DNA of 47,442 bases from Armatimonadota bacterium (GCA_036504095.1 DASXVS010000049.1:1-47442), one strand, 5' to 3'. Positions 24,005-44,662 are shown, counted from the stretch's first letter. Made by a program: numbers and translations. The notes: generated by a model from the letters alone, not told the origin.

Positions 24005-25840
24005 TCAGTAGGCGTACGTGCCCATGAGTTCGAATGCGTTGGGCCGCTGCGTGTAACCCTGACCGCGGAAGCGTTGCGGGATGATCTGAACGCTGATCGA
24101 TTCGGCGGGAGTGATGTCATGGGCGAGGGTGACGGCGAATTCGAAGCGGTCACCCATGTCCGGCAAACCGTTGTGATATTGCACGGCGTCACGAAGTTGG
24201 AGCGACCCCTTGGTTTTGTCCGTGAACCGGTAGTCCAGGCGGCCGAAGAACGCCTGAGTATTAGGCCCAAACGGGTTGCCGATCAGCAGGTCCTTGTTTG
24301 TCCACCCGACTTGCGGCACGATGCCCATGTAAGTTTCGCGGTCGGCGCTGTAGATTTCGAAACGGCCGTCGCCCCGTTTGCCGAACAGTTCCGGGAAGCG
24401 CATGCCGAAAACGTATGCCAATTTGCGCGGAACATTTCCCACACCGAGCCCGGACGGAGCAGAGATGTCGTCCAGGATCAATTCGCCGTACGCATCCGCT
24501 TTGCGATTCAGGTGGGCCACCAGGTCGACCTGGGCCATGTAGTTGAACGTGTCGTTGCCGGCCGAGCTTGTGGAATGGCCGCCAAGCCTGGAGCGGTTGA
24601 TGACGAGGCGCTGATATGCGTAGAACGGCATGACGAGACTCAACGGGTTCGGCGCGTGGGTGGAAATATAGGCTTCGCCGAGGCCGAGCTCCAGACGTTT
24701 GTTGATGCGGGATTCCATCCGGCGGAAGCCGAAATACTTAGGCCCGTCCAGATCGCGGAAGCCGCCGTATACCTGCGTGCCGATGAACCGCCCGAGCGGG
24801 CCCCATTTGAAGGCACCGCGCGCCTTGACCATCACCATTCCGGGGGAGTTATCGCTCAGCAGGCCATCGCCGGACGCCAGTGGGCCGGAGGACAGGTAGG
24901 TTTTGCCGACTTCCCAATCCATGCCGAGGCCGCGGAAGTTCGCGGTGGCGACATCGATGGCCGGGAACGCTTTGGGGAGCGAACTCGTGAGTTGGTGGAG
25001 GTTGTTCACGGACAGGGCCAGGAAGACGTTGTCGTTGACATCGTAGATGCCGCCGACACGGCCGGTGACGTTTACCTTGCTCTCACCGCGGAATCGCCAG
25101 TAACGAAGGCCGCCATAAGCGGAAAGGCCAGGCGCCTCCGGCACCAGCGTGGGTTTCGCCGGATGGTCGAGCGTAATCTCCAGCGCCGCTTCAACCGCCT
25201 GTTGAACGGCGGGGTCATAGCGGAATGAGCCGGCCAGGCGGCGCAGGAGCGCCGGGTCACGGTCTGTGCCCATTCCGGACGTATAAAGGAGAAGGGCTTG
25301 GGCGGTCAGGCCGCCCAGTTCGCCGCGGGTGAACTGGCGTGTGGCCTGAAAATCCCGGGCGGCATATCCGGGCAGCAACCCGTCTACCGCCAATGACGAC
25401 AGCGCCATATACTCCCACCGCTCCCAGGGGATAATATCCATCAGATGCTCGTTGTACGAGCCGTGTGTGGCGGCGGGCGCGCGGGGAGCCTCACGGGGCG
25501 GGTTTGTCTTCGGGGCGGAAACGGGAAGCTGGTCCGCGGACGGAAGCTGGACGTCGTCGAGAACCTGTACCGTCGCTCCCTCCACGGTGGACACGCGTCC
25601 CGTGGCGGACTCGTTTTCCACCTTCGTCAGCACGATGCTGCCGACCTTCACACCGGAGTGGAGCACGGGGAGTTCCTGCCCCACGGTCAGGCCGGCATTG
25701 GCCCCGGCGCCGATCACGGCTGTGTCCGCGGCGGGCATGGATGTGATGGACGCGTTGCTGCCCTCAGTGTGTCCGGGCGCGGCGAAAAACGGGTACAGAA
25801 TCGCGATCGCCAGGATACGCAGGATGCCATGATGGCGCAT
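24005..25840 (-). CDS. Outer-membrane beta-barrel protein: FlgT-C-like domain, SLH segment and Wzi-like capsule barrel
   Basis: The 611-residue protein has a signal peptide (ILRILAIAILYPFFAAPGHT). Residues about 38-95 (AVIGAGANAGLTVGQELPVL, VGSIVLTKVENESATGRV) resemble the small beta domain found at the end of FlgT-like proteins. A Pro-rich linker leads to an SLH-like segment (about 133-185: IPWERWEYMALSSLAVDGL, FQATRQFTRGELGGLTAQAL). The remainder (about 230-611) is a beta-barrel with the Wzi-like stretch ASGDGLLSDNSPGMVMVKARG, alternating aromatic strands and a terminal aromatic (GTYAY). Wzi anchors or organises capsule on the outer membrane; here the SLH part could bind cell-wall polymer and link wall to outer membrane. 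The ATG at 25840 shares a base with the stop of the sugar transferase gene (TAATG) and follows GAGGAG. Confidence 0.8.
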   Translation of the reverse strand: MRHHGILRILAIAILYPFFAAPGHTEGSNASITSMPAADTAVIGAGANAGLTVGQELPVLHSGVKVGSIVLTKVENESATGRVSTVEGATVQVLDDVQLPSADQLPVSAPKTNPPREAPRAPAATHGSYNEHLMDIIPWERWEYMALSSLAVDGLLPGYAARDFQATRQFTRGELGGLTAQALLLYTSGMGTDRDPALLRRLAGSFRYDPAVQQAVEAALEITLDHPAKPTLVPEAPGLSAYGGLRYWRFRGESKVNVTGRVGGIYDVNDNVFLALSVNNLHQLTSSLPKAFPAIDVATANFRGLGMDWEVGKTYLSSGPLASGDGLLSDNSPGMVMVKARGAFKWGPLGRFIGTQVYGGFRDLDGPKYFGFRRMESRINKRLELGLGEAYISTHAPNPLSLVMPFYAYQRLVINRSRLGGHSTSSAGNDTFNYMAQVDLVAHLNRKADAYGELILDDISAPSGLGVGNVPRKLAYVFGMRFPELFGKRGDGRFEIYSADRETYMGIVPQVGWTNKDLLIGNPFGPNTQAFFGRLDYRFTDKTKGSLQLRDAVQYHNGLPDMGDRFEFAVTLAHDITPAESISVQIIPQRFRGQGYTQRPNAFELMGTYAY

Positions 25841-33095: not shown

Positions 33096-34727
33096 ATGGT
33101 AGACGAAACCCAAACGAACGAACCGATCGAATTCGCCGCTGCTGAAGCGGTTGAGGTGGAGGCCGCGGCGGCCCCGGAACCGATCGAGGAACCCAAGGCT
33201 GAGGCAGCCCCCGAGGAGCGAAGACCGCTTCCTGTGGTGGGCGAGCCGACCCCGTCTTCACTGGATAACATGTCTGACGCGGAGTTGTTCGGCGCGCACC
33301 TGTCGCCGGGTTCGGAATACACAGGAACCTTCCGCACGCTGAGCGAGGGTGATGTGGTGAAGGGCGAAATCGTGCGCATCGACCGGGAAGGCGTCCTGGT
33401 TGACGTGGGCCAGAAATCCGAAGGCTTGATCAAGCCGCAGGAGATGGGCCGCGAGAACGCGGACGAAGCCCCTCTGGCCGTGGGAGATACGGTTGACGTG
33501 ATGGTGATGCAGGGCGAAACCCCCGAGGGCCAGCTTCTGCTTTCCAAGAAGCGCGCCGATTTCGAAAAAGCGTGGGACCACGTAATTGAGGCCCAGCAGA
33601 ACGACGAGATCATCCAGGCGATGGTCACGGATCGCGTGAAGGGCGGCCTGGTGGTTGACCTCGGCATCCGCGGGTTTATCCCGGCGAGCCATGTGGGCAA
33701 CGGCAAGGTTCGCAACCTTGAGAAGTACATCGGCGAGGCGCTGCCGTTGAAGGTCATCGAAGTGGACAAGGAGCGCCGCAAGGTCGTTCTTTCCCACCGG
33801 TTGGCCACCGAAGGCGAGCGTGAGAAGCAGCGCGAAGAGACGCTTGAGACCCTGCGCGAGGGTCAGGTTCGGGCCGGTGTGGTTCGCCGCATCACCGATT
33901 ACGGCGCTTTCGTGGACTTGGGCGGCGTGGACGGCCTGCTGCACATCTCCGAGATGTCCTGGAGCCGCATCAAGCACCCGAACGAGGTTGTGAAGCAGGG
34001 CCAGGAAATCCAGGTGATGGTGCTGAAGGTCAACCTGGAGCAGGGCCGCATCAGTCTCGGCATGCGCCAGATCCTTCCGGATCCGTGGACCGAAGCCAGC
34101 AAGAAGTACCACTCCGGTGACATCATTGAGGGCAAGATCAGCCGGCTGGTTCAGAGCGGGGCATTCATGGCGCTTGACGGCGGCATCGAAGGCTTCATCA
34201 AGAACAGCGAGCTGGCCCAGCGCCGCGTTGCCCGCCCTGAGGACGTGGTGAAGGTTGGCGACGCCGTACAGGTGAAAGTTCTGGACGTGCGCCCGGACGA
34301 GCGCCGCATCGAACTGAGCCGCAAGAGCCAGGAGAAGCGTGAAGAGCGCGAACAGGGCGAACGCGGCGAACGCGGTGACCGTGGTGACCGACAGGCTCGC
34401 GAGTACCGCCAGAAGCAACCGGATGACCGCTTCACCCTCGGCGACAGCCAGGGTGATGCGCTGGCCGCCTATAAGGCCGAACTGGAAGCCGCGGAAGCCG
34501 AAGCGGCTGCGGCCACCCCGGAAGAGGCTGTGGAAGCTGCCCCCGAGGTTGCGGAAGCTGCTCCCGAGGTTGTCGAGGCGGCCCCTGAGGTTGCGGAAAC
34601 CGCCCCCGAGGTTGTGGAAGCTGCCCCCGAGGTTGTCGAACCGACCCCTGAGGTTGTGGAAGCGGCCCCCGAGGCAACTGAAGCCACCGAGGAGACCGCC
34701 GAGGTCGAGCCGAAGGCGGCAGAGTGA
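33096..34727 (+). CDS. rpsA: 30S ribosomal protein S1
   Basis: The 543-residue protein binds mRNA on the small subunit. It has four S1/OB domains at about 82-152, 168-235, 253-322 and 338-407, seen as GDVVKGEIVRIDREGVLVDVG, KGGLVVDLGIRGFIPASHV, GAFVDLGGVDGLLHISEMSW and SGAFMALDGGIEGFIKNSEL. The second is the usual degenerate one. An acidic N-terminal 60 residues (EAVEVEAAAAPEPIEE) precede the domains. After a charged Arg/Glu/Gly region, about 55 residues of near-identical seven-residue units (APEVVEA type) form the C-terminus. Six-domain proteobacterial S1 differs; four domains are usual in Gram-positives and several other phyla. A terminator follows at 34757. Confidence 0.95.
   Translation: MVDETQTNEPIEFAAAEAVEVEAAAAPEPIEEPKAEAAPEERRPLPVVGEPTPSSLDNMSDAELFGAHLSPGSEYTGTFRTLSEGDVVKGEIVRIDREGVLVDVGQKSEGLIKPQEMGRENADEAPLAVGDTVDVMVMQGETPEGQLLLSKKRADFEKAWDHVIEAQQNDEIIQAMVTDRVKGGLVVDLGIRGFIPASHVGNGKVRNLEKYIGEALPLKVIEVDKERRKVVLSHRLATEGEREKQREETLETLREGQVRAGVVRRITDYGAFVDLGGVDGLLHISEMSWSRIKHPNEVVKQGQEIQVMVLKVNLEQGRISLGMRQILPDPWTEASKKYHSGDIIEGKISRLVQSGAFMALDGGIEGFIKNSELAQRRVARPEDVVKVGDAVQVKVLDVRPDERRIELSRKSQEKREEREQGERGERGDRGDRQAREYRQKQPDDRFTLGDSQGDALAAYKAELEAAEAEAAAATPEEAVEAAPEVAEAAPEVVEAAPEVAETAPEVVEAAPEVVEPTPEVVEAAPEATEATEETAEVEPKAAE
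34522..34680 (+). repeat. 21-bp tandem repeat in the 3' end of rpsA
   Basis: About seven imperfect units of 21 bp (consensus around GCCCCCGAGGTTGTGGAAGC) encode A-P-E-V-(V/A)-E-A heptads in the tail of protein S1. They are in frame, so change of copy number would lengthen or shorten the acidic tail without breaking the gene. Confidence 0.8.
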
Positions 34728-34756
34728 CAGGCCGTCCTTGAGGCGTTTCGTGGGAG

Positions 34757-34781
34757 AGCCCGGCCATGCGCCGGGCTTTTC
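34757..34781 (+). terminator. Rho-independent terminator after rpsA
   Basis: AGCCCGG (34757-34763) pairs with CCGGGCT (34771-34777) around a 7-nt loop, followed by a T-run (TTTTC). It lies 30 bp after the rpsA stop, in the usual place for an intrinsic terminator. Confidence 0.85.
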
Positions 34782-34879
34782 TGCGACTGAAGGATTCGGC
34801 GGCCGGGTGGATCAAATAAGGTGGCGCGGACGAATGCGCGGCGGCCGGAATTGAAGGTTTCAAATTCGGACTGAAACAA

Positions 34880-35497
34880 ATGAGCAAGATGACGCGTCAA
34901 AAGGGTTTGGTGCTCGGAGTGACAGGAGCGGCCGGCAGCGGGAAATCCACCGTAACGCAGATGCTGTCCTCATTGGGGGCGCAGACGATCGACGCGGATG
35001 CGCTCGTCCGCTGGGCGTACAATGATAGCGCCTTCCGGGGCAGGGTTGTTGCCCGTTTCGGGGACGGTATACTGGATTGCCGGGGCGGGGTAGACCGTGG
35101 GAAGCTGGCCGATATCGTGTTCCAGAATCCCGAAGCGCTGGCGGATCTTGAGGGGCTGGTACACCCGGCCGTTCTGGACCAGATGGCGGAGTCCATCGAG
35201 ATGTACCGCGCGGAACCGGAGCGCGCGCCCGTGCTGGCCGTGGAGGTACCGCTGTTGTTTGAAGCCGGCGCGGACACAATGGTGGATCGGGTATTGACCG
35301 TGACCGTTGGCCCGGAGACCCGGGCGCGCCGGCTAGCCGAGCGCGGTTGGGACGCCGAACGCATCGCGGCGGTTGACAGGAGTCAGATGCCGCTTTCCGA
35401 GAAGGCGGCGCGCGCAGATTACGTTGTTGAAACGGATGGCACGCTTGAGGACACCGCGGCGCGCGTGGAAGCCCTCTGGCGTCGCATGGTTGAATAA
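34880..35497 (+). CDS. coaE: Dephospho-CoA kinase (CoaE)
   Basis: The 205-residue P-loop kinase phosphorylates dephospho-CoA in the last step of coenzyme A synthesis. Walker A is GAAGSGKST (16-24), followed by DADALVRWAY (the usual CoaE DAD motif), a lid-like region around VHPAVLDQM, VEVPLLFEAG, VTVGPETRARRLAERG and the MPLSEKAARADYVVET segment with the family Q.....K..AD pattern. The start could be the ATG at 34880 or 34889; neither has a strong ribosome site. The length is normal for bacterial CoaE. It lies alone between a terminator and the promoter for the large secreted protein. Confidence 0.96.
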   Translation: MSKMTRQKGLVLGVTGAAGSGKSTVTQMLSSLGAQTIDADALVRWAYNDSAFRGRVVARFGDGILDCRGGVDRGKLADIVFQNPEALADLEGLVHPAVLDQMAESIEMYRAEPERAPVLAVEVPLLFEAGADTMVDRVLTVTVGPETRARRLAERGWDAERIAAVDRSQMPLSEKAARADYVVETDGTLEDTAARVEALWRRMVE

Positions 35498-35763: not shown

Positions 35764-38700
35764 ATGTTTTTACGAATCGCCGCAAAGGGTACGGCTGTCT
35801 GGTTGGGCCTGGTAACGGCCGTTCTTCCGGTGTCAGCCGGCGGCGCCAGGATGACCGTGCTCAGGACCATGCGCCCGGCGCCGGTCGCCGTGGCCGCACG
35901 CAAGCCGGCGCCCAAGCCGAAGAAGCCCGCAATGCGCGGCCCGAACTACCTTGGGATCAGGGCTTTGCCCGTCTTCCCGTTGCGCGTTGCCGCGCCGGGC
36001 GAGAGGACAGCGTCGGCTTCGCAGGCGCGCGCCAGGTCCTCGCAAAAGACTCACGGCGGAACGCCGGACATCGACACCAATACCACCAACGGATCGTATA
36101 ACAGTGTTGAGCCAAAGTTCCTCTCCAGCGGAGGCGTCGCGTATACGGCGAACGGCCCGAACGGCAGTGACAACTACCCGCCGCCCGCTCCCGACATCAC
36201 CAAGGACCCCAATGCCGATCCGCCCCTTGGTATCCAGATGCCCCCCTTCCTGGTTGGGGCAAACGACTACCACATCAGGTACCGGACGCCTGCCGGGACG
36301 GTCCTCGTGCGGGTCGCGGTGGGTGACAACGAGGTTGGGGAACAGTTCGAGCCGACTGCCAACAAAACAAACACACTGGGCTTCACGGCGTTTCTGGGTA
36401 TCCACCACGACATCTATAAGCCCAATGTGACTGTCACGCTTGCGGACGGTACCCAGGTGACCCTGGATTACCATGGATTTCCTGTTCGGACGATCTGTCT
36501 GAGTGACGACGCCCTGGCGACATCCCTGACCGGCGACAATGGCACCATTTCCAAAATCCTGCAGCCCGACCTTTACGGCGTTGGCCAGGTTCCGATCACG
36601 GGGACAGACGGAACGGTTACGAATAAGTACATGCCGTTGTTCACGCCGGACGCCACCCCGATCTTCTACCCGAATAACAGCCGTTACGTGTTCTTTGTGA
36701 GCCTGCGCGGTTACGACCCGAAGAACCCCGCCACGCAGGTCACCAGCCTCTGGATGTGGGACACCGCCAAAGCCATTACCGACGCCGGCTACGTTCAGAA
36801 GATTTATTCGTCCCCGACCGGCAAGTCCGTGCTATACCCGCGGTTTTCCGTTGACGGCACTTACCTGACATGGACGGAAGCGGACATCAAATATCCGATG
36901 GACGAGAAAACCGGCGCCATCCAGGATCCGGTGTTCGACATTGATGTGTCTCGCTCGATACTGCAGACGCCGTTTGCCTCGCGCGTGTTCCTCGGTAAGA
37001 TCGCCGTTAGGAACCCCCCTGCCGACAACAAGCCCGCTTCCGCTTCGATCGGCGGCGCCACCCAATTGACGTTGTACGTTGACGAGAAGAATGACGCGCC
37101 GCGCGACATGATGTCGTTCTTCAACGGCCTGAACCAGGTGGGTTTCTCCTCCGATCGGCTTGACAAGGATGGCGACGGCCTCGCCGACGGTGTTGAAACC
37201 GATCCGACGAAGGCGCTGTTCGACATTTACGTCTATCCGTTCCCGTACGATCCGAACTGCTCCGATGAAAGCGTTCCGGACTCGATGGCACATCGCCAGA
37301 CACTGGGCGACAAGATGGTCCCCACGATCCCCACTGACCCGACGAGCCCGCTGATTCACTTCGACGATTCGAACGAGCTCTACGGGGACGCGGCGCCGGT
37401 CAACTACGGGTCCGACTTGCTGAGCCTGATGACACCGAACATCATGTACCAGGCGGACGACCGCATTCCGACCATACCGCCTCCGACGACCGTCGATCCG
37501 AATGACCTCGGGTGGGACATCTGGACGACCAATCGTGCCGGCGCCATCACGTCGCAGGGTGACATCCTTAACGGCCTGCCGGTTGTGACGCCTGATCAGG
37601 ACCTTCCGGCCGTTCAGCAGAGCGACCTCGTGCTGACGCATCGCAAGGGCTTCCCAAGCGATTACGTCAACATCACCGTCAACGTCAACCCGAAATACTA
37701 CCACTTTGACGATACGACCAAGGCTCCCACAACCGAGGTGTACGCCCTCGTCAAGGACCCCGACAACCGGATCTACCGCAGCGTGGAGAGCGAAGTTGCT
37801 CCGAGCGTGACCTTCACGGCGGACCAGGAAGTCGACGCGTTTCCGGTGAAATTCTGCAAGCCGGACTTCGACGCCTATACGGCCGCCTGGGGCGGTAAAG
37901 CAGGCGCTCCGCAGATTGGCGCGCTCATCAAGCTGAAGGCGGTCAATGACACGCCGAATCCGTTGTTCCCCGTGGCCTATACCGGCAAGTGGTACACTCC
38001 GGCCGAAGTTTCCGACTTCATGATTGATATCATCGTGAAGGTGCCGCCGATTCCGGCCACACAGACCACCCCGGCGATTCCAGCGCATAGCTATATCACG
38101 GATAACATCGGCGGATTCTCTACCGCGCCCTTCATCCCGACCAGCCGAGTCCTGGTTGTCAGCGACTTCGCCGCGGGCCAGAAGTCGATGGACGATACCA
38201 CAGGCGGTTCAGCCGCTCGTTACGGTACGAACGGTGTCCGGACCGAGAGCTATTTCCTGGACCATCCCGGCCCAAGCGTCACCTCCGACGGTATCCCGAT
38301 TTTCTCCCAGAAGTATGGCGGCGATCCCTGGGCTGTCTTCGGGCCCCGCCGCGAATGGCAGACCGAGCCGACTCTCACGGAGGACCCGATTTCCCATCGC
38401 CTCGTCGCGGGGAACGACGGGCTCCTGAATGCGGGCGATCCGCTCTTCGTTGATTCCGCCGGGCACACGGAATACGATCTGTGGCGCACGCAGTGCCGCG
38501 AGCCGATTACGCTCGATGACGTAAAGGAATCGACCGGCAGAACCGTCTCCCGCGGCGTATTGCACAACTACCTCCCGTATACCCACTCCCAGCCGGGCTA
38601 CCCGATTCCTTCCGTCCTGAGAACGCAGCGTGTCGCGGATCGGTGCGTCGTCTGGGTCTCCCCGCACACGGGCAACCTGAACGGCAACGCCGGACAAAAC

Positions 38701-41700
38701 TCCGCGGAGGTCGGCACCATTGCCAATCTCTCCACGCAGGGCGAACTGGTGAATTACATGAACCGCGGCGGGCGTTTGATGCTTGCCGGCGCGGACGTGG
38801 CGTACGTGCTGTCCGGGGACAACCCCAATTCGTCCAACGCCTTGCTGGCGCGGATGAAGGTGGCGTTCCAGAGCGACGCGGACGTTGACGAGGTCTCTCC
38901 GTTCCAGTTCCATCGCACAAACGCAGTGAACGCCAAAGACGGCAGTATGTTCGGGCTGAACCCCATACCGTACGTGATGGTTGAAGCCCCTCTCGCCCCG
39001 CACTGGCCGGGCGGCGAGCCCACCAATCTTCCGCTGCACAGCCCTCGCGGGAACCCGGATCACGAAAGCCGCGCGGACGGTTCGCTGTCCAACTACCATC
39101 AGGACGGAATCACCGGCGTGGACATCGGCACGGTCGGCGGCGCGGAGCCCGTTTACTACTACGCCACATCGGACGTCGGCGACAAGACGCTTCTGTGCGC
39201 CGTTCAAACTCATATTCCGGTTACCTCGGACAACGCGAGCGCGTCCAAGACGTTCTTCATGTCCTTCAACCCGGACGCGATTTCACGAGGCTATGCCGCC
39301 CCGACCGGGACGCCTCCGTACGTCATCAGCCCCAACAACCCGGCAACGATGTTCCACAACGTCGTTGACTACTTCTGCACCGGCGGGTTCCTGGGGAACG
39401 TGTTCATCACCACGAACGTCTCGAGCCTGAAGAACGTCCTCGTGTACGCGGTCGATGACTACAACGCTGAAGCCGCCGGCAACATCCGCGGCACTGCGCT
39501 GACGGACGACACGGGCTTCTTCACGATGGATGGCCTGGAGCCGAGCATCTACCGGATGTACGCTTACAAGGTCGGCTTTGCGATAGGGTCTCACGAAGTC
39601 CGCGACGCCGTTGACACCATGCGGAGCGGTTATACCCGGGACAACATCACTCTGGTGCCTACCCAGCCGGGCTCCCTCGCCGGTACCGTTTACCAGAAGG
39701 GCACGTCCCCGCGCCTCGTGCTGGCGGGTGTGCCGGTGACCCTCACGGACATCACGGGCGCCGCGAACATGATGGCTATCACGGACGCCAACGGGCAGTT
39801 CGCGTTCATTAACATCCCGACCGGTTTCTACACCATCACCACGCCATACGGGCAATGGAAAGCCGGAGTATATTACGCCGCATACACGAATCCGGTTGGC
39901 TCATTGACCATCACCACGGGCGTGAACAAGACGTTCGACATCGCCCTGACGACCACGACGCCGATCACTATCTCCGGAAACGTGACGGATGCCGACACGG
40001 GCAATCCAGTCAGCGGCGTTACTGTAACGGTGACTGACGCGACCGGAGCCAATACCGCGACCGCCGTGTCCGACACAGCCGGTTACTACGCCTTTGGCGA
40101 CCTGCCGAATGGCGCGTACACTGTGACGACGCCCGAAGGCCAGTACACCATGGTCATCAGCGCTACGAAGAGCGAGCAGCACTACTACGCAGCGACTTCG
40201 AACGCAGGCAAACCGCTGGCCGTAACGCAGTTCGGCAACGTCTCGTTCCCGATCGTGCTGACGCGGACTGCTCCGAAACCGGCGACGATCGTGGTCTCCG
40301 TGAAGGACGCGTTCACGCTGCCGGCCAAACCGGCGCAAGGCGCGGTCATCACCGTCATTGACGTAGCGACAGGCGCTCCCGCCGTCCCGCTTGACAGCGG
40401 GCTGAACCCGATCACGACGACCGTGACGGGCGATCCGACGGACGGCACCGGCACGTTCAAGGTCAACTCCGGCACGTACACGATCACCGTGACGTACCAG
40501 AGCCTGGCGCCGCAGAGCAAGACGATCATCGCCGCCCCGGATGACCCGGCTGACCCGACCAAGGTCAATCAGGTGAACTTCGAATTCGGCGTTATCCATA
40601 CCTTCACTGCCGGCAGTGTGCTGATGGCTTCCCTGCCGTACGACTACAGCGGGACCACCTCGGTTCCGATCACGTTCAGCAAAGTGCTGACGCTGACCAA
40701 CGCTCAGCTGGCGAACGCCGTGGTCGGCTACAACGCCGGCACGCAGGCCTTCGTGTTCTACCCGAACAACCCCGCCGATACAGCCCGCCTGGGCCGCGGC
40801 TACGGGTTCAAGCTGCCGGCTGACGGCAAGGTGGTGGACCAGGGTACGTCAATGTCCGGCACAACGGGAATCATCAGAACCGACATCGGTTGGAACCTGA
40901 TTGGCGACCCGTGGCCGGGGACAGTGGTCTGGAACGGCACGGGAACGGACTCCGTTCGGGTGACGCTGCGCGACGATGCGACTCAGACCAAGATGACCAT
41001 CGACGACGCGAAGACGAAGGGCTACATCCTCAGCGACCTGTGGGGTGGCTCCAGCGTAGACGCGAACGGCAACTCCGTGTACTCAGGAACATACCAGGTG
41101 GCCTCGCCAACTATGTCTCTGGTGCCGTGGCGTGGTTACTGGGTGAAGGTTGCCCAGCCGCTGCTCTTCTACGTACCCAAACCCGCCGTCCCGGCCGGAG
41201 CGAACATCAAGGCTGTTGCCGAGATTGAAGCGATGAAGGGCGCGCTGATGCCCGCGGCCGATAAGTGGGGCATGAACATCACCGCTTCCGCGGACGGCAT
41301 GACCGATAACGGCCTGGCGCTGGGCATCAGCAGCCGTGCCACCGCCGGAATCGATCCAGGCCTTGACCTGGCGAAGCCGCTTCCGATGAGCGGCGGCAAA
41401 TACCTGTACACCGCCTTCCCGATGGGGTCCGCCGGAGCCTACGCTACCGACGTCCGCAGTCCGGGAGCGCTGAATATCTGGACGATCAACGTCAGCACCT
41501 CGTTGAACGCGCGGATGGTTACCCTTACGTGGACGCCGGTGGGCAGTTTGCCTGCCGGATACACGGCCTGGCTGGTGGACTCTGCAACAGGCCAACGAAC
41601 CAACATGAGCGCGGTGAATCAGTACGCGTTCCGATCCGCCCGCGACGGTGGTGTCCGCACATTCCGTGTGGAAACGCGCCGTGCCGGCGTTTCTAGATAA
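35764..41700 (+). CDS. Very large secreted multidomain surface protein
   Basis: The product has 1,978 residues. The ATG at 35764 follows GGGGGAGATAAGGG and starts a signal peptide (RIAAKGTAVWLGLVTAVLPVSAGG), so an upstream in-frame extension to 35608 is not used. A Pro/Lys-rich stretch is followed by a beta-rich region with PD40-like sequences (FTPDATPIFYPNNSRYVFFVS, YPRFSVDGTYLTW). A thrombospondin-3-type calcium site, DKDGDGLADGVETDP, lies near 467-481. A region around 960-1060 (STQGELVNYMNRGGRLMLAGADVAYVLSG) resembles a ThuA or class-I glutamine-amidotransferase-like fold. Three or four carboxypeptidase-regulatory-like beta domains lie at about 1230-1600 (GTVYQKG, SGNVTDADTGNPVSGVTVTVTD). 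The C-terminal 350 residues have DIGWNLIGDPWPG, typical of secreted Armatimonadota proteins. No enzyme site is recognised. Confidence 0.8.
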   Translation: MFLRIAAKGTAVWLGLVTAVLPVSAGGARMTVLRTMRPAPVAVAARKPAPKPKKPAMRGPNYLGIRALPVFPLRVAAPGERTASASQARARSSQKTHGGTPDIDTNTTNGSYNSVEPKFLSSGGVAYTANGPNGSDNYPPPAPDITKDPNADPPLGIQMPPFLVGANDYHIRYRTPAGTVLVRVAVGDNEVGEQFEPTANKTNTLGFTAFLGIHHDIYKPNVTVTLADGTQVTLDYHGFPVRTICLSDDALATSLTGDNGTISKILQPDLYGVGQVPITGTDGTVTNKYMPLFTPDATPIFYPNNSRYVFFVSLRGYDPKNPATQVTSLWMWDTAKAITDAGYVQKIYSSPTGKSVLYPRFSVDGTYLTWTEADIKYPMDEKTGAIQDPVFDIDVSRSILQTPFASRVFLGKIAVRNPPADNKPASASIGGATQLTLYVDEKNDAPRDMMSFFNGLNQVGFSSDRLDKDGDGLADGVETDPTKALFDIYVYPFPYDPNCSDESVPDSMAHRQTLGDKMVPTIPTDPTSPLIHFDDSNELYGDAAPVNYGSDLLSLMTPNIMYQADDRIPTIPPPTTVDPNDLGWDIWTTNRAGAITSQGDILNGLPVVTPDQDLPAVQQSDLVLTHRKGFPSDYVNITVNVNPKYYHFDDTTKAPTTEVYALVKDPDNRIYRSVESEVAPSVTFTADQEVDAFPVKFCKPDFDAYTAAWGGKAGAPQIGALIKLKAVNDTPNPLFPVAYTGKWYTPAEVSDFMIDIIVKVPPIPATQTTPAIPAHSYITDNIGGFSTAPFIPTSRVLVVSDFAAGQKSMDDTTGGSAARYGTNGVRTESYFLDHPGPSVTSDGIPIFSQKYGGDPWAVFGPRREWQTEPTLTEDPISHRLVAGNDGLLNAGDPLFVDSAGHTEYDLWRTQCREPITLDDVKESTGRTVSRGVLHNYLPYTHSQPGYPIPSVLRTQRVADRCVVWVSPHTGNLNGNAGQNSAEVGTIANLSTQGELVNYMNRGGRLMLAGADVAYVLSGDNPNSSNALLARMKVAFQSDADVDEVSPFQFHRTNAVNAKDGSMFGLNPIPYVMVEAPLAPHWPGGEPTNLPLHSPRGNPDHESRADGSLSNYHQDGITGVDIGTVGGAEPVYYYATSDVGDKTLLCAVQTHIPVTSDNASASKTFFMSFNPDAISRGYAAPTGTPPYVISPNNPATMFHNVVDYFCTGGFLGNVFITTNVSSLKNVLVYAVDDYNAEAAGNIRGTALTDDTGFFTMDGLEPSIYRMYAYKVGFAIGSHEVRDAVDTMRSGYTRDNITLVPTQPGSLAGTVYQKGTSPRLVLAGVPVTLTDITGAANMMAITDANGQFAFINIPTGFYTITTPYGQWKAGVYYAAYTNPVGSLTITTGVNKTFDIALTTTTPITISGNVTDADTGNPVSGVTVTVTDATGANTATAVSDTAGYYAFGDLPNGAYTVTTPEGQYTMVISATKSEQHYYAATSNAGKPLAVTQFGNVSFPIVLTRTAPKPATIVVSVKDAFTLPAKPAQGAVITVIDVATGAPAVPLDSGLNPITTTVTGDPTDGTGTFKVNSGTYTITVTYQSLAPQSKTIIAAPDDPADPTKVNQVNFEFGVIHTFTAGSVLMASLPYDYSGTTSVPITFSKVLTLTNAQLANAVVGYNAGTQAFVFYPNNPADTARLGRGYGFKLPADGKVVDQGTSMSGTTGIIRTDIGWNLIGDPWPGTVVWNGTGTDSVRVTLRDDATQTKMTIDDAKTKGYILSDLWGGSSVDANGNSVYSGTYQVASPTMSLVPWRGYWVKVAQPLLFYVPKPAVPAGANIKAVAEIEAMKGALMPAADKWGMNITASADGMTDNGLALGISSRATAGIDPGLDLAKPLPMSGGKYLYTAFPMGSAGAYATDVRSPGALNIWTINVSTSLNARMVTLTWTPVGSLPAGYTAWLVDSATGQRTNMSAVNQYAFRSARDGGVRTFRVETRRAGVSR

Positions 41701-41738
41701 CAAATGGGGAGAGCAGGCAGCAGCCTGTAGACGGTAGG

Positions 41739-41779
41739 CGTCAGGCGGCCCTCGGCAGAACCGAGGCGCCGGCCTGACG
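41739..41779. terminator. Long hairpin after the large surface protein gene
   Basis: An outer 8-bp stem (CGTCAGGC at 41739-41746, GCCTGACG at 41772-41779) encloses a GGC/GCC step and an inner CCTCGG/CCGAGG stem (41750-41755, 41761-41766) around CAGAA. It lies 38 bp after the stop. Read-through to the next gene on the same strand is possible. Confidence 0.7.
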
Positions 41780-41838
41780 ATACCGGCTAACGACTACTGC
41801 CCGCCGAATGCTCCACAATTTCAGGAGGAACAGAGACT

Positions 41839-43821
41839 GTGAATAGGTTTCTTCGCCGCGCCGCGCTGCTGACAGCCGCCATTGCGCTCGCGGTTACCGC
41901 CATCGGCACCGCCATGGCGCAGGTTGGCAAACCGCTTACCGTGGCTGTGCTCACGTTTACAAACTCCAGCGGAGTGGGGGGAGCGTTGTTAGGCAACAGC
42001 GCATCCGCCGCCGCGGAAACTCAATTCATCGGCTCCCCAAAGTATGACGTCGTGAAGAAGGACACGGTCGTTAAGACCATGTCCGACCTTTCACTCACGT
42101 ATCCGTTGGGCCGAGTCGGCATACAACAACTTGCTACCGCGCTGGAAGCGGATGCCGTCATCACGGGCGACGTGGCGAAGGTTGTCAAGGACCCGAAGAC
42201 CGGGCAGGTGAGACTGACGCTTCGCGTGGAGATGACGGATCGTTCATCCGGTGAACTGGTGAACGGCGCCATCGTGACAGGCGAGAGCGGCGTTCGGCCG
42301 GGCTTGACGGGGTCCGAGGACGCGCTTCTCGACGAAGCGTTGAACAAGGCCGCATTTGCGGCGGTTCGCTCGATGAACGAGCGCATCCTGCCGGAAGGCA
42401 CAGTTTACGCGACGTCCAGCCGTGAAGGCCAGATTGAAGCGCTTCTGAATATCGGCAGCAACAGCGGCGTTCGCCAGGGGATGGAATTCATCATCCTGCG
42501 CAATCGCGAGCAGGTTGGCCGGCTACAAATCACCTCCGTTTCACCGACGGACTCGACGGCGGCCGTTATCGCCACCACGCGCGGCGTGCAGCCGGAAGAC
42601 AAGGTCCGCGCGGTATTCCGTTTGGAGAACATCCCCGTTGACCTCGGCGGCACCGGCGCGTCCAAAGCGACGATTCGCCGCCCGAAATTGAGCCTCGGCA
42701 ACCTGGCCATCGGCGCGGGTATGCTGTTGGGGTTGACGAAGCTTGCCCACGGCAGTTTCAGCCAGGGTAGATCCGTGCGGAACGCCACCGCTGTCGCCAC
42801 GGGCCCGTTCAATGGCGCTCCATTCCCGAACGATCTACCGGACGTGCCGGTCGTTCATATCAAGTGGAGCCCGCCGAGTGGTGTCCTTCAGTCGGACATC
42901 ATTGGGTACTCCGTTCGCCGCCTGGACCGCCCCGATGGCAACCCCGTCGACATCGTAAACGCGGGACAGACGAGCGTCTATGATACAGGCCGTGCCCGCG
43001 ACATCCAGGCCCTGACGCCGTTCGTTGAATCCAAAGTTGACGGACTGGACGCCGGCGCGCCGACGCGCTACCTGATCAGCTGTGCTTATAACTTTACGAG
43101 CACAACCGGCACCGGCACAGGCACCGGTACGGGCACCGGCACAGGCACGACCACGACGACCGTGAAATACGCGACAGACGTTATCACGGGCGCCGCGACG
43201 GGCCTGATCCCGCCGCCTACGGTCTCCGGCTCGCTTTCACTCGACCCCGCGGCGATGGGCGCCAGGGTGTTCACGTTCCAGCAGGTGCCGGGCGGCGACA
43301 GATACGTTGTCCAGATCGCGAACAATCCCCAGTTCACCGGCGCCGAGACGTATCCGAAGGGTGGCGAGGGTTTGGCGCTCGCGCCGACGCCATCCCTTCT
43401 GTTGATGTGGTACGGCGCGATGGACACGTCTACGCCCCCTGTCTGCGTTCCCGGATTGGATACAACCTGTGTGAACGGAATCAACACCGATCCCCGGACC
43501 AATACCACCCTCAAGCCGATCTACTGCCCCGATGCGTCGATGACGCTGAACCTGCTGACCAGCCAGTTCGACTTCACGACAGGTACGTACTACTGGCGCG
43601 TTGGCACGCGGAACACCCGCGACGATAACGTGCCGGAGAACGGCGGCTGGGTGTGGGGCGCGATGAGCCCGCTCGTTTACGAAGGCTCGACGCCGACGAT
43701 GAAGTCCGTTGCCGGGCGCCACCCGGGCGCCGGTCCGGTTCGCCCGCGCCAGCCAGGCGCCGGAACCACTTCGACGGAGCTGCCCACCGCGCCATTGGGG
43801 CGCTCGGGCCGCGGTCGATAG
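41839..43821 (+). CDS. Secreted CsgG/TolB-like protein with FlgT-C-like and FN3 domains
   Basis: The product has 660 residues. The GTG start at 41839 follows AGGAGGA and begins a signal peptide (RRAALLTAAIALAVTAIGTAMA). Residues about 33-185 resemble CsgG/TolB-N folds (TVAVLTFTNSSG, QLATALEADAVITGDVAKV, LRVEMTDRSSGELV). About 188-265 is a FlgT-C-like beta domain (LLNIGSNSGVRQGMEFIIL, VGRLQITSVSPTDSTA), the same type seen in the Wzi-like protein. A short hydrophobic stretch near 294 and an FN3-like domain (about 335-450: VVHIKWSPPSG) follow; a Gly-Thr run interrupts a loop near 424-437. A second beta domain and a basic C-terminal tail end it. Probably envelope-associated with the neighbours on both sides; no known function. 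Confidence 0.75.
   Translation: MNRFLRRAALLTAAIALAVTAIGTAMAQVGKPLTVAVLTFTNSSGVGGALLGNSASAAAETQFIGSPKYDVVKKDTVVKTMSDLSLTYPLGRVGIQQLATALEADAVITGDVAKVVKDPKTGQVRLTLRVEMTDRSSGELVNGAIVTGESGVRPGLTGSEDALLDEALNKAAFAAVRSMNERILPEGTVYATSSREGQIEALLNIGSNSGVRQGMEFIILRNREQVGRLQITSVSPTDSTAAVIATTRGVQPEDKVRAVFRLENIPVDLGGTGASKATIRRPKLSLGNLAIGAGMLLGLTKLAHGSFSQGRSVRNATAVATGPFNGAPFPNDLPDVPVVHIKWSPPSGVLQSDIIGYSVRRLDRPDGNPVDIVNAGQTSVYDTGRARDIQALTPFVESKVDGLDAGAPTRYLISCAYNFTSTTGTGTGTGTGTGTGTTTTTVKYATDVITGAATGLIPPPTVSGSLSLDPAAMGARVFTFQQVPGGDRYVVQIANNPQFTGAETYPKGGEGLALAPTPSLLLMWYGAMDTSTPPVCVPGLDTTCVNGINTDPRTNTTLKPIYCPDASMTLNLLTSQFDFTTGTYYWRVGTRNTRDDNVPENGGWVWGAMSPLVYEGSTPTMKSVAGRHPGAGPVRPRQPGAGTTSTELPTAPLGRSGRGR
43105..43149 (+). 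repeat. Hexanucleotide repeat encoding a Gly-Thr run
   Basis: About seven and a half units of GGCACN (variants GGTACG, GGCACA) encode alternating Gly-Thr inside the FN3-like domain of the gene at 41839-43821. A change in copy number keeps the frame, so this is a possible site of length variation. Confidence 0.8.
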
Positions 43822-43830
43822 GATAGAGAC

Positions 43831-43853
43831 GGGGGAGGGGTCTTCCCTCCCCC
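43831..43853. terminator. G/C-rich hairpin between two envelope genes
   Basis: GGGGGAGGG (43831-43839) pairs with CCCTCCCCC (43845-43853) around GTCTT. It lies 10 bp after the stop at 43821 and just before the ribosome site of the next gene. Attenuation or transcript processing is plausible. Confidence 0.65.
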
Positions 43854-43873
43854 TGCTTTGTGGAGAAACCCGT

Positions 43874-44662
43874 ATGATTAGAGTTCCGATATCGACGCTG
43901 GTTCGATCACTGGGGGTGGCGGCATTATGCGCGGCGGTGATTGCCCCCGTGTTCGCCGCAAACCAAACCCTGCTGGTGTTTCCAGTGGATAAGCCGGAAG
44001 CCGTGGACCAAGGCGTTGCGGATGCCGTGCTGTCCGGCTTGCGGTCGCGCGTAGCCGGCCCCGTGAAGTACGACGCGATGGCGTTCTCCCCAACTTCGGC
44101 GCTTGCGAAGATGGCCGTAACCGGCGGAACGCTTACCGCGGCGCAGGTGGCCGGCCCGTATACGCCGGAGACAGCTTCCGCGATCGCGCGAGCCGTTGGC
44201 GCGGACATGGCCCTGGTAGCCAGCGTTGAGGACGCTTCTGTGGATACCGCAGCCAACAAGGCCACGGTGACCATTTCGGCGCAGCTGCTGGGCGCGTTGG
44301 ACGGCAAGGCCGTCAAGACGGCCGGAGCTTCCGGCGAAGCCGTGAACGCATCTTCGCCGCAACTGAGCCTGCTGCGACAGGCAGCGGACGCGGCGGCTGG
44401 CAAGGCCGCGGCGCAATTGTTCGGCGCCTCCGCTAATGCTCCGGGACCCGTTGTACGGCCTCAACCTGGCAAGACCCCCGGCGCAACGTCCGAGGGCGCG
44501 GTTCCCACACCGCCGGCAGCCAAGAAGTCGAAGAAGGGCGGCAAGACCGGCCTTCTCATCGGCGGGCTTATCCTGGTCGGCGTAATCATCGCCAGCAGCC
44601 ACGGCAGCAGTGGCGGCGGCACGAATACGGGCGGCGGCGGACCGCCACCGTTCCCGTTCTAA
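43874..44662 (+). CDS. Small envelope protein with CsgG/TolB-like body and C-terminal membrane helix
   Basis: The product has 262 residues. The ATG at 43874 follows GGAGAAA and starts a signal peptide (RSLGVAALCAAVIAPVFA). The body (about 28-195) has the same order of elements as the N-terminal part of the upstream protein: a LLVFPV strand, a KYD segment, SAIARAVGADMALVASVEDAS and a repeat-like DGKAVKTAGASGEAV, so a common fold is likely. A Pro/Lys-rich linker (KKSKKGGK) precedes one hydrophobic helix (TGLLIGGLILVGVIIAS) and a Gly/Pro tail (GGGGPPPFPF). It may sit in a membrane next to the large surface protein; the function is unknown. Followed by a strong inverted repeat. Confidence 0.72.
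   Translation: MIRVPISTLVRSLGVAALCAAVIAPVFAANQTLLVFPVDKPEAVDQGVADAVLSGLRSRVAGPVKYDAMAFSPTSALAKMAVTGGTLTAAQVAGPYTPETASAIARAVGADMALVASVEDASVDTAANKATVTISAQLLGALDGKAVKTAGASGEAVNASSPQLSLLRQAADAAAGKAAAQLFGASANAPGPVVRPQPGKTPGATSEGAVPTPPAAKKSKKGGKTGLLIGGLILVGVIIASSHGSSGGGTNTGGGGPPPFPF

Follow-up and report, generated by a model that had tools for sequence, protein, structure and literature searches.

What does a giant exported protein do beside two smaller exported proteins that are encoded immediately downstream of it? The question is raised by a stretch of 47,442 nucleotides from an Armatimonadota bacterium (GCA_036504095.1 DASXVS010000049.1:1-47442; hereafter the window), in which three genes, here called A, B and C, follow one another on one strand. 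The initial annotation likened B and C to CsgG, which forms an outer-membrane secretion pore, and considered an export or anchoring role for A conceivable. Here we find that A, B and C appear to belong to an undescribed system that builds or displays the cell surface, and we infer that the trio may act jointly in export or anchoring, by a route other than a CsgG-type pore.

Three exported proteins among housekeeping genes

The open reading frames agree with the initial annotation in number, length (1,978, 660 and 262 residues), strand and position. They are separated by 138 bp (A-B) and 52 bp (B-C), and all genes neighbouring the trio are housekeeping genes: rpsA and coaE upstream (33096-35497), in an order kept in many relatives, and cysS and mscL downstream.

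33096-34727, + strand: rpsA, housekeeping gene upstream of the cluster (Pfam S1)
34880-35497, + strand: coaE, housekeeping gene upstream of the cluster (Pfam CoaE)
35764-41700, + strand: A, ATG start, 1,978 aa, giant exported multidomain protein (open reading frame and family HMM match)
41839-43821, + strand: B, GTG start, 660 aa, FlgT-like exported protein (open reading frame and family)
43874-44662, + strand: C, ATG start, 262 aa, exported protein paralogous to the first B domain (open reading frame)

GC content at the third codon position (0.80 in A, 0.77 in B and 0.74 in C) exceeds that at the first (0.57-0.68) and second (0.49-0.58), as expected of real genes in a GC-rich genome, and each of the three start codons is preceded by a purine-rich site of the ribosome-binding type. 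The signal peptides first proposed for all three proteins are matched by hydrophobic, signal-peptide-like N-terminal segments, and across the B family the A-x-A|Q-type end of this segment is nearly invariant. A promoter-like site (TG plus TATAAT) lies about 180 bp upstream of A, in a region where such sites occur as often as expected by chance.

Homology and predicted folds of B and C

B and C had been noted to share an order of short sequence elements. The two proteins are so distant that a pairwise comparison does not detect the relationship (BLASTP E 0.26), and single-sequence Pfam and NCBIfam scans of B and C gave no match over threshold. When 27 B and 17 C homologues were aligned and compared as profiles, the first domains of the two families matched over 152 columns with a probability of 98.7% (E 1.5e-16), and the listed elements fall within the matched stretch; the shared order thus reflects real homology. 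Profile searches and predicted folds divide the two proteins as follows.

41935-42393, + strand: B, PelC/LpoB/TolB-N/CsgG-type alpha/beta domain, residues 33-185 (profiles, predicted fold)
42394-42624, + strand: B, FlgT-C/TsaP-C-like beta domain, residues about 186-262 (TsaP E 7e-4; FlgT match over both domains)
42688-42738, + strand: B, hydrophobic helix preceded by basic residues, residues 284-300
42841-43698, + strand: B, FN3-like region, residues about 335-620 (weak matches of the fn3 type, from scans of family members and from PDB profiles)
43964-44428, + strand: C, PelC/CsgG/LpoB-type alpha/beta domain, residues 31-185 (predicted fold)
44546-44599, + strand: C, hydrophobic helix after a basic stretch and followed by a Gly/Pro-rich tail, residues 225-242

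The AlphaFold2 models of B and C were built on three-sequence alignments (the window and L032, an Armatimonadetes MAG), with block pLDDT values of about 60-88 over the domain of C, mostly 57-83 over the first domain of B and about 50 over its second. For C, Foldseek retrieved CsgG (E 1.2e-5), GNA1162, PelC, FlgT, LpoB and TolB at E-values of 1e-5 to 2e-3, and VIA-align placed PelC first (Z 11.6 over 124 residues, 3.0 A), followed by CsgG (Z 10.2), TolB (9.8) and FlgT (9.5-9.7). For B, Foldseek placed FlgT first (E 5e-11 over 278 columns, to the cryo-EM LPHT ring, and 8e-10), as did VIA-align (Z 13.5-13.8, the lower value over 145 residues of the middle domain); TolB, PelC and CsgG (Z 12.5) come within about one Z unit of FlgT for the first domain, and LptE chains are found among the matches at Z 8.4-9.0.

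Sequence profiles point the same way. Against the PDB, the B profile matched LpoB over positions 31-119 (E 5e-5), which makes LpoB the closest hit by sequence to the first domain, and, over positions 193-264, the C-terminal region of TsaP; the matches of the C profile, to PelC and XCC0632, were weak. When family members were scanned one by one, Pfam LpoB was found in eight of the 27 B proteins (best 1.1e-9) and four of the 17 C proteins, CsgG in seven and two, and LptE in three and four, respectively, while FlgT_C (3/27) and the MreC core (9/27) were found in B members. Structure prediction, proposed earlier as a test of whether the two small proteins are related in fold, thus gives folds that match CsgG, PelC, LpoB, TolB and FlgT and are not unrelated to each other; Foldseek, VIA-align and the PDB profile search agree on a predicted CsgG/TolB-type fold for both, and structural and profile searches likewise uphold the FlgT-C-like second domain of B.

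PelC, LpoB, CsgG, TolB and FlgT form one fold family, so that the order of Z scores alone cannot decide function. What singles out FlgT, of the Vibrio H ring, as the likeness of B is its domain order, a TolB-N-like middle domain followed by FlgT-C. B differs from FlgT in that it lacks FlgT_N, its TolB-N-like domain starting a few residues past the end of the signal peptide, in its additional hydrophobic helix and FN3-like domains, and in not being tied to flagella. PelC agrees in alpha/beta fold and in size with C and with the first domain of B, and is the best VIA-align match of C, but it is a lipoprotein dedicated to exopolysaccharide, whereas the C of the window has no lipobox and ends in a hydrophobic helix, and no PelB-like partner was identified.

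Could B or C, or both, then form a CsgG-type outer-membrane pore through which A is secreted, as the initial annotation had it? The fold matches, and the Pfam CsgG model touches members of both families. In the models, however, residues 1-164 of C align to residues 49-251 of CsgG and residues 1-153 of B to residues 49-248, so that about 200 residues of CsgG are covered by 164 and 153 model residues and its membrane hairpins have no counterpart. The models, although built on shallow alignments, contain strands of the PelC/LpoB type only, in domains of PelC/LpoB size. A lipobox was found in none of the 27 B proteins and not in the C of the window, with one candidate among the 17 C homologues. 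B and C thus have the core alpha/beta fold of CsgG in common but differ from it in hairpins, lipobox and recognised partners, and we consider such a pore highly improbable.

The same searches bear on a second reading, in which B and C activate peptidoglycan synthases in the manner of LpoB and have nothing to do with the adjacent A. LpoB is an activator of peptidoglycan synthesis. The profile and Pfam matches to LpoB speak for this reading, and the fold that LpoB has in common with GNA1162 and the N-terminal domain of TolB is also that of B and C. The domain context and the partners differ, however: B has FlgT-C-like and FN3-like domains in addition, B and C of the window lack the lipobox, and the genomic partners (see below) are surface-type proteins and an outer-membrane barrel. 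An activator role therefore appears to us very hard to sustain.

The C-terminal membrane helix that had been reported for C is confirmed; the helix of B was absent from the earlier description. In the 15 residues on either side of the C helix, Lys and Arg number 58 before and 6 after (13 helix-bearing members), and around the B helix 87 before and 43 after (25 members). Under the positive-inside rule, basic residues before a helix that follows a periplasmic domain are the reverse of what is expected of an inner-membrane stop-transfer segment, and, judged from sequence, the charge pattern around both helices seems to fit no simple topology. A Wza-like barrel of amphipathic helices is not favoured, because the B and C helices are hydrophobic throughout and have a low moment (0.09-0.11).

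A locus conserved across the phylum

The initial annotation named conservation of the gene order in Armatimonadota as a check on the trio. We surveyed 81 genomes of the phylum, 61 of them high-quality. That this phylum is Armatimonadota is indicated by L032, whose RpsA is 76% identical to that of G033, a genome placed in the same phylum as the window. B was found in 74 of the 81 with a single query sequence and in 79 with a profile, including 60 of the 61 high-quality genomes, and is thus a core protein of the phylum. A has matches in 66 genomes, some limited to its repeats or its C-terminal module. Among the 73 other genomes in which the single-sequence search found B, A is the immediate upstream neighbour of B, on the same strand, in at least 37 (counted by hand, with G027 added from the locus table; several other loci end at contig edges). 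At E 0.1, C has matches in 43 of the 81 genomes, of which chance may account for the weakest, and is on the same contig and strand as B in at least 21 (hand count). In the 30 B loci that we tabulated, some of them overlapping, the identified neighbours of B are always co-directional; with A upstream of B in so many genomes, this means that the grouping is not due to chance. Among the titles and abstracts listed in literature searches on the Armatimonadota (Armatimonadetes) envelope, we found no description of this locus.

The grouping is therefore kept across the phylum, but the trio is not its natural unit. In full, the order is (polA)-rpsA-coaE-[A]-B-[X]-[Y]-[Z]-C-D. C follows B at a distance of several genes in most relatives, as many as three large exported proteins (X, Y and Z) standing between the two, and after C comes D, a protein that combines an N-terminal, invasin-type Big_1 domain with an LptD-like region. 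In the window the cluster is reduced to A-B-C and D is on another contig. G002, a genome of the same class, likewise has A, B and C in direct succession, and this direct A-B-C is a reduced arrangement seen in the class of the window and a few other lineages. The D homologue of the window's own genome (L080:12684-14783, - strand, equal to G000:C43 about 40689-42776) has both Big_1 and LptD-like parts. X, Y and Z were not found in that genome by way of the module they have in common with A (see below), and no full copy of the module besides that of A was detected there.

D is nearly as widespread as B (78 of the 81 genomes); in 43 of them it shares contig and strand with B and lies downstream (hand count). 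Its profile matches LptD (7omm), in the jellyroll and barrel region, with an E-value of 3.5e-6 over D positions 171-334 (164 positions), which is part of the protein only. Where C and D are both visible, C is in most loci the gene that immediately precedes D. This pairing underlies the strongest rival to the reading that we favour, namely that C, and perhaps B, is an LptE-like plug or adaptor of the barrel D in the transport of LPS or another glycolipid, the A-type proteins being separate surface proteins of the same operon. The fold of C is related to that of LptE, and Pfam LptE touches members of both families; D is nearly universal, and Pfam LptD was found in none of the 41 genomes in which it was sought, an absence that proves little, since the same model also misses the control Synechococcus. 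On the other hand, PelC, CsgG, TolB and FlgT are better fits than LptE, this reading leaves the large proteins encoded between B and C without explanation, and in the genome of the window D is unlinked from C; D also differs from LptD in its invasin-type N-terminal domain. We regard an LptE-like role for C as unlikely, though it deserves to be weighed before the other alternatives.

Protein A and its C-terminal module

A matches its family HMM over the full length apart from the last 96 or so positions. The family layout comprises a TolB/PD40-type propeller near the N-terminus, a central region, CarboxypepD_reg repeats and a C-terminal module; the propeller was not detected by Pfam in the A of the window, in which the other three parts are found as follows.

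37681-39408, + strand: central region, residues 640-1215 (block conservation; no PDB match)
39421-40443, + strand: CarboxypepD_reg-type repeats, residues about 1220-1560 (Pfam PF13620, E 6.3e-22)
40579-41697, + strand: C-terminal module of the GWNLIG/GYW type (positions 1-345 of 442 of profile A4, E 1.1e-89)

Residues from about 700 to 1050, within the central region, are among the best-conserved parts of the family, and a PDB profile search detected no relative of this region among solved structures. The C-terminal module, of about 350 residues, is common to the large multidomain proteins A, X, Y and Z. FlgD_ig matches were found in 20 of 22 aligned modules, and in most copies FlgD_ig runs to the last residue; the module of the A in the window lacks this end. 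The NCBIfam models of the type IX secretion system (T9SS) that matched weakly among the 22 modules were PorU (15), PorZ (9) and the type A sorting domain (6), and the module also matches the C-terminal domain of PorU itself (6za2, E 0.0046).

Such matches bring to mind the T9SS attachment complex of PorU, PorZ and cargo with C-terminal domains. A, with propeller and C-terminal domain, would then resemble PorZ, and X, with protease and C-terminal domain, PorU, while other proteins that bear the module would be cargo. In many relatives A does have a propeller and X an S8 subtilase domain, and the large exported-type proteins end in FlgD_ig/T9SS-CTD-like domains. The locus nevertheless differs from a T9SS: SprA, the T9SS part that was searched for, exceeds the TIGR04189 cut-off in none of the 61 genomes searched, the protease is of family S8 and not C25 (with S8 motifs not found in several copies of X), FlgD_ig is common outside the T9SS, and the A of the window lacks the terminal domain. 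SprA matches in 35 genomes at first resembled a T9SS, but all were below threshold and nearly all fell in one short stretch; two of the matching proteins had no informative Pfam domain. A T9SS-like attachment complex thus seems to us very unlikely.

B and appendage rings

The likeness of B to FlgT, and that of its second domain to the C-terminal region of TsaP, raise the question of whether B is a ring or scaffold of a known appendage, either TsaP-like, at the secretin of type IV pili or type II secretion, or FlgT-like, in the flagellar H ring. Secretins were found in all 41 genomes tested, with two to nine in each, so that a collar around a secretin is conceivable. The P-ring protein FlgI, by contrast, was found in 47 of the 81 genomes and is absent from the 98.6% complete genome of the window, as against 79 genomes with B, and flagella are thereby excluded as the context of B. 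In addition, B has neither a LysM domain, in which it departs from TsaP, nor an FlgT_N domain before its alpha/beta domain, and none of the genes that recur in the cluster could be assigned to pili or flagella. Membership of a known appendage therefore strikes us as improbable.

A proposed ring or collar for the large proteins

From the family identities and the synteny described above, we infer a function for the locus. The reading that we favour, tentatively and at slightly less than an even chance, is that the window has, as A-B-C, a shortened version of an envelope locus found across the phylum, rpsA-coaE-[A]-B-[X-Y-Z]-C-D, in which a ring or collar serves the A-type proteins. B and C would assemble in the periplasm into rings or collars that dock at the outer membrane and could help the A-type proteins to reach, cross or stay attached to that membrane. 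B and C themselves would form no CsgG-type pore, and the channel would be a separate one, whether D, a secretin or another. A ring or collar is favoured by precedent, since the outer-membrane examples of the fold are rings: PelC assembles, as 12 subunits, into a periplasmic ring on the barrel PelB (PMC12141448), and FlgT together with FlgO builds the H ring associated with the outer membrane (PMC6504787).

The homology of B and C, their predicted folds and the profile matches to LpoB, TsaP and, weakly, PelC are consistent with this ring or collar, as are the core status of B, the conserved synteny, the module common to A, X, Y and Z, and the LptD-like D. Against it stand the non-collars in the same fold family (LpoB, TolB and LptE), the charge pattern of the helices, the three-sequence alignments behind the models, and the composition of the window's genome, with D unlinked, no X, Y or Z recognized by the module, and an A without the FlgD_ig end.

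A more specific and more speculative possibility, which we consider doubtful, is that Armatimonadota have their own outer-membrane machine for protein export or display beside rpsA-coaE. It would combine rings of B and C with the barrel D, would operate without a T9SS translocon, and would have as clients giant proteins marked by the FlgD/T9SS-like C-terminal module. If such a ring-plus-barrel arrangement holds, the CsgG/PelC/FlgT fold would have gained a further, new use, and the locus would be a candidate system for protein display, testable in the few cultured members of the phylum. Whatever its precise role, a protein that 79 of 81 genomes encode, that has conserved partners and for which no curated family was found is likely to be central to the envelope of these bacteria. 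Armatimonadota are diderm relatives of mostly monoderm groups, and their outer-membrane machinery bears on how that membrane was retained or lost.

Other features of the locus and the window

Two C homologues are extended by FN3-like domains that echo the FN3-like half of B, one (L066:14657-15940, + strand) by these alone and the other (L056:3-3203, - strand) by FN3-like domains followed by Ig-like repeats. The latter, in G009, was considered as a fusion of C with D, a notion we dropped, as the open reading frame consists of C, FN3-like and Ig-like (Big_1) repeats and ends at the contig edge.

Within the window, the gap between B and C contains a GC-rich stem-loop of 10 pairs with a weak T run (43831-43853), and a second inverted repeat lies in the gap between A and B, around 41740-41780; these could affect the expression of B and C. 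Between about 23 and 33 kb, on the strand opposite to A, B and C, lie open reading frames that resemble sugar-nucleotide and polysaccharide genes, among them one for a Wzi-type capsule assembly protein (24005-25840, - strand; PF14052, E 2.6e-12).
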